Shown: piece by piece, positions 6,496 through 11,790 of the stretch | Numbering within the stretch: the first letter of the stretch is position 1 | How the letters are laid out: the number at the start of each line of letters is the position of its first letter | Assembly: GCA_011375345.1 (NCBI GenBank) | Contig: DRLM01000087.1 | Coordinates: 1-35,620, forward strand | DNA from: Gammaproteobacteria bacterium | GTDB lineage: Bacteria > Pseudomonadota > Gammaproteobacteria > DRLM01 | Length of the DNA stretch: 35,620 bases | Direction: 5' to 3' | The notes under the pieces: generated by a model | What the model was told of the DNA's origin: nothing | Databases searched by the model: none | The model's input: only the letters and a program-made list of their open reading frames with translations | Translations under genes and position numbers: made by a program

Positions 6496-6672
6496 TGCGA
6501 GTGTCCTCATTCAGATCGTAGACCGCGGACAGGCCGGCAGCGCGCCCCCGGCGTCCAGCTGGAGTTGATCGGTAATTATTTCACAGTTCCCCCCAGGGAT
6601 GCACGATGCGCCCCCCGCAAACGCAAAGGGGCGCCGGCCCCCCGGCGCCCCTTTATCACCGCCGCGAAGTGG
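6496..6672. promoter_or_regulatory. recA upstream region
   Basis: This holds the recA promoter and the 3' end of the lipoprotein transcript. The only SOS-like sequence is CTGTGAAATAATTACC on the minus strand near 6571-6586: its first half fits a LexA site, its second does not. The A/T-rich stretch there is the best promoter candidate. A strong hairpin at 6625-6654 isolates it from the gene upstream. Confidence 0.4.
6625..6654 (-). terminator. Rho-independent terminator after the lipoprotein gene
   Basis: Arms AAAGGGGCGCCGG (6625-6637) and CCGGCGCCCCTTT (6642-6654) form a perfect 13-bp stem with a 4-base loop. The minus-strand transcript leaving the lipoprotein gene (stop at 6673) meets it about 18 bases downstream and ends in TTTGCGTTTG. 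The symmetric A/T ends could also let it act on the other strand. Confidence 0.8.
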
Positions 6673-8358
6673 TCAGTTCACCGAGAAAAACACCAGTGCC
6701 TGCTCGCCGTCGTCGCGCATCACCTGCACAGTGTAGGACTGTCCCGCCGCCAGATCGGGCGAAGGATCGGACCCCAGGGTGGTGATACCGCTCAAGCTGT
6801 AGTCACCATAGCGGACCGGAGAACCCAAAGGCGGCGCACCGTCCTCGCTTTGGATGCCATACACAATCGTCCCCGCCGCGTCCACTTTGGTCACCAGCAA
6901 GATGGTGGCCTGGCCCGACCAGCTGAACAGGGGCCGGCGCGGATTGTCCGAGATCCGGATGTCCGCCGCCACCGCCAGCTCGCCGCGGCTGCCGTCAAAG
7001 TTGACGTAGCGGAGTACATCCAGGTCGGTGGCCGGACGTGGCGCACTGCTGTCACCGCCGGCACAAAACGGTGCCGGCGAGCCGAGTTTTTCGCACAGCG
7101 AAAACTCCGCGGCCGAAGCCAGATCCTTGCCACTCAGCGCCATGTTCACCGCCGTGCCGGCGGCCGCCAGTTTGCCGGCACCATAGGCCGAGACGTATTG
7201 CGAGCCCACCCGCGCCGTGGCGCTGAGCAGCTCGGCGGTGACGTCGAAGCGGCCCCTGTCCCGCTGCAGGGCGGCATCGGTATTCTCGCCGCTGACCCAG
7301 GCCTGGAACGCCGAGAGCAGCGCGGACAGCTGGGCCACCCCCACCCCTGCGGCATTGGCCATGACAGCCGTGCCACCGGAAGTGACGGTGGCCACGCCGG
7401 AAAAGAACAAGCTCAGCATCGCCAGTCCGCCGTTCAAGCTTTGCTTGCCCCATTTCAGGACATCCTTCATGGACGTGCTGAACACATCCTGGATACTGCG
7501 CTTGGTGGTCTCGCTGGGGGCATCGCTCCCGGCCCAGCGGGCTTTTGCTTCCTCCCAGGCCGGGCTGATGGTCTGGCGCACCCCACGGGGAACCACACCC
7601 CGCGCGGCCGCCGCCGGGGCCGCCGCGTCCAGCACGATTTGCGCGGACACCAGTTCGTGCAGGATCCACACATCGAGCTGGCTGAGCTGGGCCGGCGACA
7701 GCACCACGGTGGCCCCGTCCACCGCGACGGTGAGGGTGCCGTTGAATTCGATCTCGTCGACCATGGCCTCCAGGCGGGTGATTTCGCTTTGAATGCGGCT
7801 GCGCCGGGCGCCGATCTCCGTCACCCCGGGCACCTCAAGGGCCAGCGCATCCAGCCTCACCAAGGCAAGCTCGTACTGCTCCACGGCGTACTCCAGCGCC
7901 CCTATCATCACCTGCCCGCCGGTGTCGAAGCCCAGCTCAAGGAAAGCCTGGACTTGCAGCGCAGTGGACGCCGTGCGGCCCTGCACCGAGACGGTCACGG
8001 GACCGGCGCCGAACTCACCGTTGCTGAAATTGAGATAGGGCGGCACGGCCACGTCCACGGCACCATCGGCGGTGGCAATGGCTTTGACCGTGACCGCATG
8101 GCCCTCGTCCAGGGCGGCGGCGGTGGCGCCCTGGCTGAACACCACGTCCACCACGGCGTCGGCCTTGATCGTGGCATCGGACACGGTGATCACCTCCCCC
8201 GGCACGGCACTGCTGACGGACAGGCTGGGACCGGTGTCGGTCGTCCCCGGCGTGTTGTTGTCTGCCGGCGCCGGATCACCGCCGCCCCCGCCGCAGGCCA
8301 GCAGCACCAGGCTCAGCAGCGCCCCCCCCGTCCATTGAATCAATCTGGTGGATATCAT
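6673..8358 (-). CDS. Large lipoprotein of unknown function
   Basis: I do not recognise the family. Residues 1-22 are a lipoprotein signal peptide with hydrophobic LLSLVLLAC, so C22 would be lipidated. The next residues are glycine and not aspartate, which favours the outer membrane. A Gly/Pro/Thr-rich linker leads to a beta-rich segment (about 45-140) beginning SVSSAVPGEVITVSD, perhaps an Ig-like fold. Residues 140-250 look helical. A central stretch around 310-350 (GGLAMLSLFFSGVATVTSG and following) is long and apolar, unusual in a secreted lipoprotein, and may insert in a membrane. The C-terminal ~120 residues look like a beta domain. ATG 8358 has GAGGTG seven bases upstream. It stands alone between recA and a two-component system, with its own terminator. 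Confidence 0.85.
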   Translation of the reverse strand: MISTRLIQWTGGALLSLVLLACGGGGGDPAPADNNTPGTTDTGPSLSVSSAVPGEVITVSDATIKADAVVDVVFSQGATAAALDEGHAVTVKAIATADGAVDVAVPPYLNFSNGEFGAGPVTVSVQGRTASTALQVQAFLELGFDTGGQVMIGALEYAVEQYELALVRLDALALEVPGVTEIGARRSRIQSEITRLEAMVDEIEFNGTLTVAVDGATVVLSPAQLSQLDVWILHELVSAQIVLDAAAPAAAARGVVPRGVRQTISPAWEEAKARWAGSDAPSETTKRSIQDVFSTSMKDVLKWGKQSLNGGLAMLSLFFSGVATVTSGGTAVMANAAGVGVAQLSALLSAFQAWVSGENTDAALQRDRGRFDVTAELLSATARVGSQYVSAYGAGKLAAAGTAVNMALSGKDLASAAEFSLCEKLGSPAPFCAGGDSSAPRPATDLDVLRYVNFDGSRGELAVAADIRISDNPRRPLFSWSGQATILLVTKVDAAGTIVYGIQSEDGAPPLGSPVRYGDYSLSGITTLGSDPSPDLAAGQSYTVQVMRDDGEQALVFFSVN

Positions 8359-8533
8359 GACTGCACCTCATCGTTGTTGTTCTGGCCCGGCACCGACTGG
8401 AAGGAGAGATGAACGGCGCTGCCGCTCTCCCGCGTGGCACATCACAATCACGCGAGCCCCCTTTCGGCAGAGAAAGGCAATATGGAATCAATGGTTATAA
8501 GGGATACTTTACGCGGTGGGACCCGTGCCGCCT

Positions 8534-8551
8534 ATGAGCAAAACTACTCAT
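8534..8551. promoter_or_regulatory. Candidate operator, ATGAG-N8-CTCAT
   Basis: A perfect 5-bp inverted repeat with an 8-base spacer (CAAAACTA) lies upstream of the lipoprotein gene and downstream of the NarL-type response regulator gene. Dimers of NarL/FixJ regulators bind short inverted repeats of this kind. The link to the neighbouring regulator is inference from position only. Confidence 0.3.
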
Positions 8552-8598: not shown

Positions 8599-8662
8599 CC
8601 GGGGATCTGGTCAACGCAATACTTTCATTCCGGGGGAGAGTGCCAGCGCCGGGATTGGAAAA

Positions 8663-8689
8663 TCCCCTCACCCTCTTTTCAAAGGGGGA
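8663..8689. repeat. Palindromic intergenic repeat copy
   Basis: The arms TCCCCT/CCCTC and AGGGGGA surround a TTTTCAAAG core; on the other strand it reads CCCCCTTTGAAAAG, matching copies at 29932 and 32443. It lies about 30 bases downstream of the response regulator stop and may help end that transcript. Confidence 0.5.
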
Positions 8690-8720
8690 ACAAAGCCGCC
8701 CGCTGCGCGCCGGGCCGGCT

Positions 8721-9353
8721 TCAACCCCGCTCCGGCGGCCCGCCGAACTGCCGCGCCGCGAAATGCAGCAGCGCATGCCGGCCGCGCAGGCCCAGTTTTT
8801 TGGCGATGTGGCCGCGGTGGTTGTCCACGGTGCGCACGCTGATATTGAGCTGCGCGGCGATCTCGCGGCTGGTTTTGTACTCCCCCACCAGTTTGACGAT
8901 GCGCCACTCGGCAGGCGTCAACAGGCCCGGCGCGGCGGGGGCGTCACCCGAAGCGGGATCGGACGCCAAGGCCCGGCTGAGATAACGCCGCCCGGCCCGC
9001 ACCTCGGCCAGGCATTTCAGCAGCTCGTCTGCGGCATCCTCTTTGAGCAGGTAGGCGCTGGCGCCCAAATCGAAGGCCCGCTCCATCAGGCGGGCATCGT
9101 CGTGCAGGGTGAGGATGACGAAGCGGGGCGCGCCGGGCCGGCGGCCCGCTTCGGCGAGCACATCGAAACCGTCCGCCCGCGGCATGCTGAGATCCAGCAG
9201 GGCCACTTCGGGGGAGTGCTGTCTGATGTGCGCCAGGGCCTCGAGGCCGTCCGCCGCCTCGGTGCAGACACAGCCCTCCACCGCCTCCAGCACTTCGCGC
9301 ACGCCGCGGCGAAACAGCGGGTGATCGTCGGCGATCAACACCCGCACGCTCAT
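8721..9353 (-). CDS. NarL/FixJ-family response regulator
   Basis: A two-domain transcription factor of 210 residues. The receiver domain (1-120) opens MSVRVLIADDHPLFRRGV, supplying the acidic pocket. The phospho-acceptor is the aspartate in VALLDLSMPRADGFD, followed by the conserved T in FVILTLHDD and K in YLLKEDAADE. The C-terminal LuxR-type helix-turn-helix is LLTPAEWRIVKLVGEYKTSREIAAQLNISVRTVDNHRGHIAKKLGL. Its start overlaps the kinase stop by four bases (ATGA), so the pair is translationally coupled. Target genes are unknown; the adjacent lipoprotein is the nearest candidate. The input signal cannot be read from the sequence. Confidence 0.95.
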   Translation of the reverse strand: MSVRVLIADDHPLFRRGVREVLEAVEGCVCTEAADGLEALAHIRQHSPEVALLDLSMPRADGFDVLAEAGRRPGAPRFVILTLHDDARLMERAFDLGASAYLLKEDAADELLKCLAEVRAGRRYLSRALASDPASGDAPAAPGLLTPAEWRIVKLVGEYKTSREIAAQLNISVRTVDNHRGHIAKKLGLRGRHALLHFAARQFGGPPERG

Positions 9354-11251
9354 GGCGCCACCGCGGGGAAGGTGAGCATCACCCGGAAACCGTGGGGGAC
9401 CACATTTTCAAAGCGGGCCTTACCGCCCAGCAGGGTGGCCCGTTCGGCGATGCTGGCCAGGCCCAGGCCGGCCGCGGGGGACGGCCCGCGACCACGGCCG
9501 TCGTCGGTCACGGAAAAGACCCATTCCATCCCGCGCCGGCGCAGGGCCAGCTCGATGCGACGGGCGCCGCTGTGGCGCTGGGCGTTGTTCAGAGCTTCCT
9601 GGGCCACCCGGTACACATGCAGATCGGCCCCGGGCGGCAGCGCCCCGCTATCCTCGTCCAACTGCACCAGGCAGACAATACCGGTCTGCGCCTCGGTGCG
9701 CTCGGCGATGGCTTCGATGGCGGCGGCCCAGCCCAGCTTGTCCAGGATCGAGGGGTGCAGACGATGGGACAGGGCACGGACCTCCTCCACCGCCTCCCGC
9801 GCCGCCGCCTCCAGGGATGCCGGCACGGCCGCGCCGTCCCCCCGCCGCAAGCGCCGCAGGGCGTTGGTGAGAAACGAGAGAGTCTGCCCCACACCGTCGT
9901 GCAACTCGGCGGCGAGGCGGCGGCGTTCCCCGTCCTGGGCCTCGATCAATTGCCGGGAAAAACGCTGCCGTGCCCGGCTGGCCGCACGCTCCGCCCTCAG
10001 CAGCCGCCCACGGACAGCGGCGCGTTCTTCCCGCATGACATTGATACGATCAGCCAGGGCGAACGACAGCAGGATGGACGACAAGGCCGCGCCAATGATG
10101 AACAAGTGCTCGCTCCAGAAAGACGGTTCCAGCCAGGCCATGGCCCGCGCTGCCAGCCACACGGTGCCGGGCAGCAGGGGCAGATACGCCAGCAGGGCGT
10201 AACGCGCCGGCCGGTAACCCGCCCGCCAGGCGGCCCACAGGGGCAGTGGAATCAGCAGCACCACCACCAAGCCCATCACCGGCAGTATGCCGAACACGGG
10301 CGCCGGCCCCAGCAGTGCCACAGCCAGGGCCAGCACCAAAGCCAGATTGCTCAGCCACCGGAACAGGCGGTCCATGCGCGGCGCGTAGCGGTGCATGCGG
10401 CCCATGCGGCGGGTGAAACGCAGCCCGGCGGCCATGCACAACCACAGGGCCAAGGTGGCGGCCCGGTCCGCCAGCGCCGGCCACTGGGGCCACAGATACA
10501 GGCTGCCGAAGCCGTCCAGGGAAAACTGAAAGGCGGTGAAACTGGCCAAATACAGGGCAAACCAGAGATAAGCCGCGTCACGGGTGGTGGGGAAAAGAAA
10601 GAGGTTGTACAGCATCAGGGCCACCAGTACCCCGTAGGCCAGGCCGTTGACCAACACCCGGTCCTGAGTGTGGCGCGCCAGGGCGTCTTCCCGCCACAGG
10701 CTCAACGGCACCATGATAGAGGTGCTGCTTTGCACCCGCAGCAGCACCTCGGTGACCGCACCCGCCCGCAGCGGCAGCCTGAAAGCGGGATAGGGATGAC
10801 GCCAGGCCAGATCCGCATGGGGATGACGGTCCCCCGCAACCTGGTGAGACCAGGGGCCGGCACCCACGCGGTGGTAAAGATCAATATGGTCGAGCTGGGT
10901 GTAGGCCAACTCCAGCCACCAGGCCGCCGTCTCCGCCCGTGCTGTCAGACGCAGCCGGAACCAGTACGGCGCGGCGCGGCGCGGGTACACCGCCCGCGGT
11001 GGTGCGGGCCGGAAGGCGGCACGCCCCCCGGTCAGGGCGCGGATGTCCAGGGTTCCGTCATCGCCTGTGAACCACTCCAGCCGGTCCTGCACCGTGACCG
11101 GGGAGCGGGCACCGTCCAGCACCACCAGCGCCGCCCCGGCTTCGCCACCAAACAGCACCCAGGCCAACACGGCGAACCCGGGCAACACAACGACGCACCG
11201 CTTCAGCGTGCTGACACGCCCCGCCCCACCTCCCGGCCGGGAAAGCACCAC
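9350..11251 (-). CDS. Membrane sensor histidine kinase, 7TMR-DISM / HisKA_3 type
   Basis: It is the partner kinase of the downstream NarL-type regulator. A signal peptide (KRCVVVLPGFAVLAWVLFGGEAGA) precedes a periplasmic 7TMR-DISMED2-like beta domain (about 40-180; WFRLRLTARAETAAWWLELAY). This is followed by seven apolar helices (about 190-390, beginning NGLAYGVLVALMLYNLFLF). The cytoplasmic part has HisKA_3 with ERRRLAAELHDGVGQ (phospho-acceptor His near residue 451). Its HATPase domain carries EALNNAQRHSGA, VTDDGRGRG and GLGLASIAERATLLGG. The start is uncertain: the frame is open far upstream across thpR. GTG 11251 or 11248, just past the thpR stop, keeps the signal peptide's charged region. 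Periplasmic 7TMR-DISM domains are thought to bind carbohydrate-like or other small ligands. Confidence 0.9.
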   Translation of the reverse strand: MVLSRPGGGAGRVSTLKRCVVVLPGFAVLAWVLFGGEAGAALVVLDGARSPVTVQDRLEWFTGDDGTLDIRALTGGRAAFRPAPPRAVYPRRAAPYWFRLRLTARAETAAWWLELAYTQLDHIDLYHRVGAGPWSHQVAGDRHPHADLAWRHPYPAFRLPLRAGAVTEVLLRVQSSTSIMVPLSLWREDALARHTQDRVLVNGLAYGVLVALMLYNLFLFPTTRDAAYLWFALYLASFTAFQFSLDGFGSLYLWPQWPALADRAATLALWLCMAAGLRFTRRMGRMHRYAPRMDRLFRWLSNLALVLALAVALLGPAPVFGILPVMGLVVVLLIPLPLWAAWRAGYRPARYALLAYLPLLPGTVWLAARAMAWLEPSFWSEHLFIIGAALSSILLSFALADRINVMREERAAVRGRLLRAERAASRARQRFSRQLIEAQDGERRRLAAELHDGVGQTLSFLTNALRRLRRGDGAAVPASLEAAAREAVEEVRALSHRLHPSILDKLGWAAAIEAIAERTEAQTGIVCLVQLDEDSGALPPGADLHVYRVAQEALNNAQRHSGARRIELALRRRGMEWVFSVTDDGRGRGPSPAAGLGLASIAERATLLGGKARFENVVPHGFRVMLTFPAVAP

Positions 11252-11253
11252 TA

Positions 11254-11790
11254 TCAAGCCAGGGGCCACGTGCGCAGCACCCGATAGCGGGCGCCGGCGG
11301 CATCCAGCTCCGAGGCCACCAATGCGAAATCCCTCACCGGCCAGGACACAGCGACGGCCATCTGCCGCAAGGCGCCCGGCGGCTTGCGCAGTTTGCGAAA
11401 GAGGGTCAGGTGGACGGCGTAGGGACGCGTTTCCGCTGTCACAGCGCAGGCCTGCTGGGCATCCCGGAGACCGCCCACCAGATGCCGCAGGGGGGCAGGA
11501 GGGACACCGCAACCCAGCCACAGCACCTGCGACCGGCGCCAGTAGCCATAGCGATCCAGCCTGAGCGTAAACGGCGGAATACGCAGCGCCGCTGCGGCCT
11601 GCTCCAGGCACGCCCGGCGCGGCGGATCTGTGGCGCCCAGAAACGCCAGGGTGAGGTGCAGATTTTCCTTGAGGGTGGGGCGGCCGGGCAGCTCACCCAA
11701 GGCGGCCCGCGCCCGCAGCAGCGCCGCGCGCACAGTATCATCCGGCCACAGGGCGAAAAACAGCCGGGGCACGTCAGCCTCGCAAGACAT
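11254..11790 (-). CDS. thpR: RNA 2',3'-cyclic phosphodiesterase / 2'-5' RNA ligase family
   Basis: A 178-residue member of the 2H phosphoesterase superfamily. The two catalytic HxTx motifs are visible: ENLHLTLAFLG (about residue 44) and YAVHLTLFRK (about 126). The family opens 2',3'-cyclic phosphates and can join or cut 2'-5' linked RNA in vitro; its cellular role is unclear. It overlaps the end of pncC by 17 bases, and its stop almost touches the kinase start, so these genes share a transcript. ATG 11790 has only a poor ribosome binding site, consistent with coupling to pncC. Confidence 0.9.
   Translation of the reverse strand: MSCEADVPRLFFALWPDDTVRAALLRARAALGELPGRPTLKENLHLTLAFLGATDPPRRACLEQAAAALRIPPFTLRLDRYGYWRRSQVLWLGCGVPPAPLRHLVGGLRDAQQACAVTAETRPYAVHLTLFRKLRKPPGALRQMAVAVSWPVRDFALVASELDAAGARYRVLRTWPLA

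Follow-up and report, generated by a model that had tools for sequence, protein, structure and literature searches.

Colicin-type pore formers carry an apolar helix-turn-helix made of two halves of about 20 residues each, and a charge-free stretch in P0002, the lipoprotein described here, bears a likeness to this arrangement. P0002 is unlike these proteins, however, in having a lipobox, in showing no sequence match to them and in that no neighbouring immunity gene was found. Ig-like domains, namely those of EBF1 (3mqi), CAMTA1 (2cxk) and cyclodextrin glycosyltransferase (1cgt), share the fold modelled for P0002 residues about 45–136. The neighbours of P0002 carry the named domains of 7TMR-DISM histidine kinase/LuxR-type regulator systems, but the lipoprotein itself is not part of such systems. 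In NicD, the outside sensory domain of this kinase type is reported to bind carbohydrates (PMC8544897), which hints at a possible signal for the kinase encoded here. Our literature search found no published link between 7TMR-DISM, LuxR and lipoprotein, and no published TIG-domain outer-membrane lipoprotein with a helical hairpin.

The window, meaning the whole stretch of 35,620 nucleotides that was analysed (Gammaproteobacteria bacterium, contig DRLM01000087.1), holds P0002 and its neighbouring features as follows.

6624..6655, minus strand: GC-rich, terminator-like hairpin 3' of P0002, between P0002 and recA (76-nt fold z-score −2.63)
6673..8358, minus strand: lipoprotein gene P0002, 561 aa (codon-position GC and two homologues)
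6676..7041, minus strand: C-terminal region, residues about 440–561 (dissimilar in homologues)
7063..7095, minus strand: two cysteines, Cys422 and Cys432, where the helical region ends (putative disulfide)
7288..7443, minus strand: charge-free apolar stretch, residues 306–357 (interpreted as a hairpin, its turn rich in Gly)
7741..7920, minus strand: first helical part, residues about 147–206 (helices in both models at low to moderate confidence; aligned in the three-protein alignment)
7951..8226, minus strand: IPT/TIG-like Ig domain, residues about 45–136 (model and VIA-align)
8293..8358, minus strand: signal peptide with lipobox LLAC (sequence; putative signal peptidase II cleavage)
8506..8514, minus strand: GCGTAAAGT with −10-like TAAAGT (8506–8511), 19 bases past the dyad (equal spacing in L047)
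8534..8551, minus strand: inverted heptamers ATGAGTA-N4-TGCTCAT, proposed response-regulator site (sequence comparison)
8721..9353, minus strand: response regulator with receiver and LuxR-type (GerE) DNA-binding domain (domain matches)
9350..11251, minus strand: histidine kinase with 7TMR-DISMED2, 7TMR-DISM, HisKA_3 and HATPase domains (putative start near 11251)

The 561-residue open frame at 6673–8358 given in the preliminary description of this DNA was recovered, and the strand, on which that description was silent, is the minus strand. Its ATG start codon is preceded by GAGGTG, which resembles a ribosome-binding site, and its GC by codon position (0.667/0.516/0.831) is similar to that of nearby recA and alaS; this composition and the existence of homologues make P0002 look like a real gene. 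The lipobox LLAC and glycine-rich linker described earlier were both seen, with Cys22 (encoded at 8293–8295), five Gly and the linker. P0002 has the N-terminal hydrophobic signal and lipobox Cys of a signal peptidase II substrate, and a lipobox-type Cys is also present in its two homologues, P0003 and P0005. Lipoproteins with Gly rather than Asp after the lipobox Cys are sorted to the outer membrane, and since Gly, not Asp, follows Cys22, P0002 is expected to be sorted there.

P0002 is set between recA and a two-component system, a gene order that had been noted previously. The GC-rich hairpin, as stable a fold being reached by one of 200 shuffles, is terminator-like and would close the unit ahead of recA. 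On the other side, the kinase frame as listed (9350–11611) begins inside thpR, and its likely start is a GTG at 11251, two bases past the thpR stop. Beyond the kinase, and on the same strand as P0002, lie thpR (RNA 2',3'-cyclic phosphodiesterase) and then pncC. A recA match was present in eight of the nine genomes searched, own genome included, and six of the seven others had pncC-thpR-recA-recX-alaS in this order, thpR and recA lying too close together for another gene to fit; in the seventh (L022) a pncC/thpR match was absent from the 1.2 kb before recA. The earlier statement that pncC adjoins recA in relatives is therefore right as to the neighbourhood in these six of seven genomes, but not as to direct contact, as thpR lies in between. 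No match to the kinase, regulator or lipoprotein was detected in the recA stretches of the seven other genomes, hence the kinase-regulator-lipoprotein block is extra here, and among the recA genomes examined it occurs between thpR and recA only in own genome.

Upstream of P0002, with a dyad centre about 184 bases 5' of the start codon, is a putative promoter element, ATGAGTA-N4-TGCTCAT-N19-GCGTAAA, in which the spacer between the heptamers is GTTT. An element with identical fixed bases and spacing was observed in G080 (L047:10061), between a regulator and a lipoprotein gene, where it reads ATGAGTA-TATA-TGCTCAT, 19 bases, GCGTAAAAT. The summed exact runs (observed 23) exceeded those of all 1500 paired dinucleotide shuffles of both intergenic regions (best 19), a statistic picked after the motif was seen, and the plain identity of the two element regions (27/48 bases) was reached in 25 of 500 shuffles. 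Allowing up to two mismatches, we found no further copy in 370,167 sampled bases of own genome or 131,984 of G080, nor in L048 and L049, the two further kinase-regulator loci read for gene order, or in shorter sequences around the remaining kinase matches. The dyad halves resemble NarL-type heptamers. Taking TAAAGT/TAAAAT as the −10 box would centre the dyad near −43.5 from the putative transcription start, which is where activators touching RNA polymerase sit. We infer that the regulator directly activates the neighbouring lipoprotein gene through this putative dyad site, and the adjoining two-component system is probably functionally linked to P0002.

Two repeats were also observed in this intergenic region. 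A 21-base inverted repeat (8414–8434 and 8631–8651, the arms 86% complementary and 196 bases apart) flanks the promoter element, and a short, CCCCCTTTGAAAAGAGGG-like intergenic repeat at 8648–8694 recurs in four more copies, 81–90% identical, on further contigs of this genome. In its sampled part, own genome also encodes two other large CGG-type lipoprotein frames of 1067 and 654 aa (L064:12796–15999 and L080:15851–17815), and the stretches that contain them lack the promoter element.

Kinase matches at 1e-40 were present in ten genomes besides own among 369, and the gene order was read for the best three of these ten. The closest relative, in G080, is 57% identical and is encoded in the order kinase-regulator-lipoprotein with a regulator 61% identical to ours; the lipoprotein frame runs off the contig and has no detectable similarity to P0002 (tblastn best E 0.38). 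The G208 kinase (47% identical) is preceded by a small lipoprotein gene. In G062 (kinase 30% identical; L049:5496–15003) the kinase-regulator pair is followed by a secreted-looking, Gly-rich protein of 381 residues, a CsgG-family protein and, as judged by eye, an RHS-like repeat protein, and this cluster is possibly a sensor-controlled surface system.

In keeping with the earlier placement of P0002 outside any known family, searches of Pfam, NCBIfam, PHROGs, PADLOC and PDB sequences produced nothing significant. Pfam returned no family for P0002 or P0003 at E up to 10 and two rows below cut-off for P0005, PHROGs and PADLOC gave no match for P0002, and PHROGs gave two weak rows for P0003 (E 0.08–0.09). 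The NCBIfam rows for P0002, amphi-Trp (E 0.015) and invert_tail (E 0.54), were both below their own cut-offs. A single-sequence query with P0002 found no PDB sequence at E up to 1, and the best row of the PDB profile searches was a cellulose-binding domain (E 0.07, then 1.2).

Two true homologues were detected, P0003 in G041 (L002/L021; E 1.8e-15 among 185 relatives) and P0005 in G796 (L050/L052; profile E 5.8e-19 in the class at completeness of at least 98), with BLASTP E values against P0002 of 2e-16 and 2e-14 and, among the three lipoproteins, of 2e-16, 2e-14 and 4e-12. The sets searched overlap and comprised own genome (n = 1), its relatives (n = 185), order (n = 6), class (n = 369) and phylum (n = 398), the relatives (n = 229) and order (n = 3) of G041, and the class at completeness 98 or more (n = 383), the larger searches scoring only the best few candidates per genome. 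Within own genome P0002 matched only itself. No plasmid carried P0002 or P0003, no phage carried P0002 and no viral contig matched; among genome contigs the P0002 query gave no match and the profile query one. The lipoprotein family thus appears rare, with a convincing homologue in two other genomes among the overlapping samples searched.

Several further candidates were rejected. The match in G049 (L003) covered no more than the signal peptide and the Gly-rich residues at the start, and that in G107 (L007) covered 59 profile positions at 15.4 bits, where the listed frames are by eye a SPOR-like protein and an arginyl-tRNA-synthetase-like piece. Seven phylum matches (L024–L030) all scored <24 bits and were taken as compositional; of the five that were read (L024, L026 and L028–L030), L024, L026 and L030 fell on HslV-like frames and L029 beside an IGPD-like frame. 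In G336 (L051, 16.3 bits) the match was to the frame of a many-helix membrane protein, judged by eye.

The three lipoproteins align over P0002 residues about 45–430 in a multiple alignment, with a common order of Ig-like domain, two long helices, beta hairpin, apolar-stretch region and Cys pair. Local BLASTP similarity between P0002 and P0003 spans residues 45–370, and comprises 229 columns between P0002 and P0005 and 416 between P0003 and P0005; because this pairwise coverage differs, the apolar stretches of P0002 and P0005 are matched by way of P0003 and the multiple alignment. P0003 resembles P0002 in its lipobox, Gly tether, Ig-like domain, helical region, 60-residue charge-free stretch and Cys pair, but differs in its C-terminal part and in its location, near a TerC-family gene and a universal-stress-like gene (by eye) and not recA or the kinase, P0003 being on a different contig from recA. 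P0005 shares the N-terminal architecture, a 45-residue charge-free stretch and the Cys pair, whereas it is 730 aa long, has a longer, Cys-rich C-terminal part and adjoins a pseudouridine synthase gene. Neither homologue adjoins such a 7TMR-DISM kinase. The Cys pair was present in all three proteins (Cys422/432 in P0002, Cys400/417 and Cys380/393 in the others), with a spacing of 10–17 residues and only the second Cys aligned throughout. The C-terminal parts are unlike in length and make-up; the beta C-terminus proposed for P0002 in the preliminary description appears in a low-confidence model only.

Two structure models were built. The first, from two sequences (pLDDT 34.6), was used for helix positions only; the second, from three sequences, covers 413 residues at a mean pLDDT of 46.8, with pLDDT <50 in the helical part past residue about 233, and a fold search with it tests the Ig part only. 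The Ig-like N-terminal strands recognised earlier are supported by this model, with ten-residue pLDDT means of 42–81, mostly 59–81. VIA-align placed this domain beside the IPT/TIG domain of EBF1 (Z 8.8), the TIG domain of CAMTA1 (Z 8.5) and the Ig-like domain of cyclodextrin glycosyltransferase (Z up to 9.2), that is at Z 8.5–9.2 and rmsd 1.8–2.7, and the top row was an uncharacterised Bacteroides protein (Z 9.3), all values barely exceeding the background of 7–8 stated for the tool. Identity to the three named structures is 14–19%, and the fold says nothing on function. Foldseek gave no match for the domain at E 0.001 (best E 0.049). Among the rows listed by these fold searches there was no pore former, which carries no weight as evidence. 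The model contains the Ig-like fold of about 90 residues expected of an IPT/TIG domain, and no Pfam profile matched it.

An apolar stretch of roughly 40 residues near 310–350 had been reported before; the stretch is real, but extends over 52 residues free of D/E/K/R, 306–357. The longest such runs in the mature proteins are 52 residues in P0002, 60 in P0003 and 45 in P0005, lengths reached in 23, 50 and 150 of 5000 shuffles, respectively, and each run consists by eye of two apolar halves flanking a Gly-rich turn. The charge-free stretch is a conserved trait of these aligned sequences, and no accident of one of them. For a membrane helix, the stretch is only marginally hydrophobic. The best listed Kyte-Doolittle mean over a 19-residue window is 1.44 in the P0002 stretch and 2.0 and 1.87 in the homologues, and a C-terminal window of P0002 at residue 484 is as hydrophobic (1.45). 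The six half-segments have mean hydrophobicities of 0.53–0.66, against 0.07 and 0.28 for two P0002 comparison helices; the helical moment does not clearly separate them (0.09–0.25 against 0.33 and 0.21). A membrane-insertion energy estimate used a residue scale with a simplified position weight, and its values are only indicative. Taken together, the hydrophobicity of the stretch is compatible with a hairpin that touches the membrane and with one that is fully buried alike. Helices over the stretch occurred only in models with pLDDT <50, and so of the structure prediction that had been proposed as a check, the Ig part could be modelled but the apolar stretch was too poor in pLDDT to call it buried or exposed.

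Our best reading, which we hold tentatively and at a little less than even confidence, is that P0002 is a sensor-controlled, lipid-anchored, modular lipoprotein of outer-membrane type, with a presumed regulation, topology, binding role and hairpin action. A soluble helical bundle with the apolar hairpin buried in its core is also quite possible, if less so, in which case P0002 would be an ordinary binding or structural lipoprotein, periplasmic or at the surface, that contacts the membrane through its lipid anchor only. The Kyte-Doolittle value of the stretch, no higher than that of the C-terminal window, the helical moments, not clearly below those of the comparison helices, the Cys pair after the helices and the lack of matches to membrane-insertion families are all in line with a buried core, but 45–60 residues without charge in all three homologues would be unusual for a soluble bundle, given the shuffle counts above.

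The preliminary description had likened the stretch to pore-forming or membrane-inserting proteins, and the comparison with helical pore-forming toxins of the colicin-/ClyA-like type gave a conserved charge-free stretch, predicted helices, borderline hydrophobicity and pLDDT <50. The conserved stretch behind that idea is genuine, can be read as a helix-turn-helix and falls where helices are predicted in an exported protein, and mild hydrophobicity would allow a hairpin to pass across the inner membrane. A protein resembling helical-hairpin pore formers and displayed on the surface against neighbours or prey nevertheless seems improbable to us: P0002 had no match to a pore former in PDB sequences, none was named in Pfam, PADLOC or the PDB profile rows at E up to 10 (five rows, then one), searches in which remote relatives could be missed, and a lipid anchor is atypical of released toxins. 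Nor did the immunity or partner genes sought in relatives emerge, as the flanks of the three lipoproteins have only the lipoprotein in common and no immunity gene is shared, although a partner gene could be hidden because two of the three lipoprotein genes are near contig ends. We give a similarly low probability to P0002 as a sensor accessory that captures ligand for the kinase, rather than an output of the system. P0002 is encoded together with the kinase and regulator, and the outside sensory domain of the kinase is of a type reported to bind carbohydrates in NicD (PMC8544897), but 362 bases and a promoter-like element separate P0002 from the regulator gene, and the lipoprotein beside the related kinase in L047 has no similarity to P0002.

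Under the favoured reading of a sensor-controlled, anchored lipoprotein, the 7TMR-DISM histidine kinase would sense an outside ligand and phosphorylate the LuxR-type response regulator, which would then bind the ATGAGTA-N4-TGCTCAT dyad and turn on the P0002 gene. The product would be exported, lipidated at Cys22 and anchored, with the Gly-rich tether and IPT/TIG-like domain adjoining the anchor. The helical region with its charge-free hairpin may be a platform shared across homologues, in which the hairpin could pack against the membrane, dip into it or pair between subunits, and the variable C-terminal part would be the binding part. A bolder version, which we consider rather unlikely, is a new surface-lipoprotein family built on an IPT/TIG-plus-apolar-hairpin platform with exchangeable C-termini and a membrane-inserting hairpin, captured here by a 7TMR-DISM/LuxR pair whose promoter element can pass between unrelated lipoproteins.

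These sequences add a small lipoprotein family that is unnamed in every library searched, and suggest a testable link between 7TMR-DISM sensor kinase pairs and adjoining genes for surface-type proteins. If the hairpin inserts in membranes, an exported protein with a lipid anchor would here also carry a helical membrane module, a combination that is probably uncommon.
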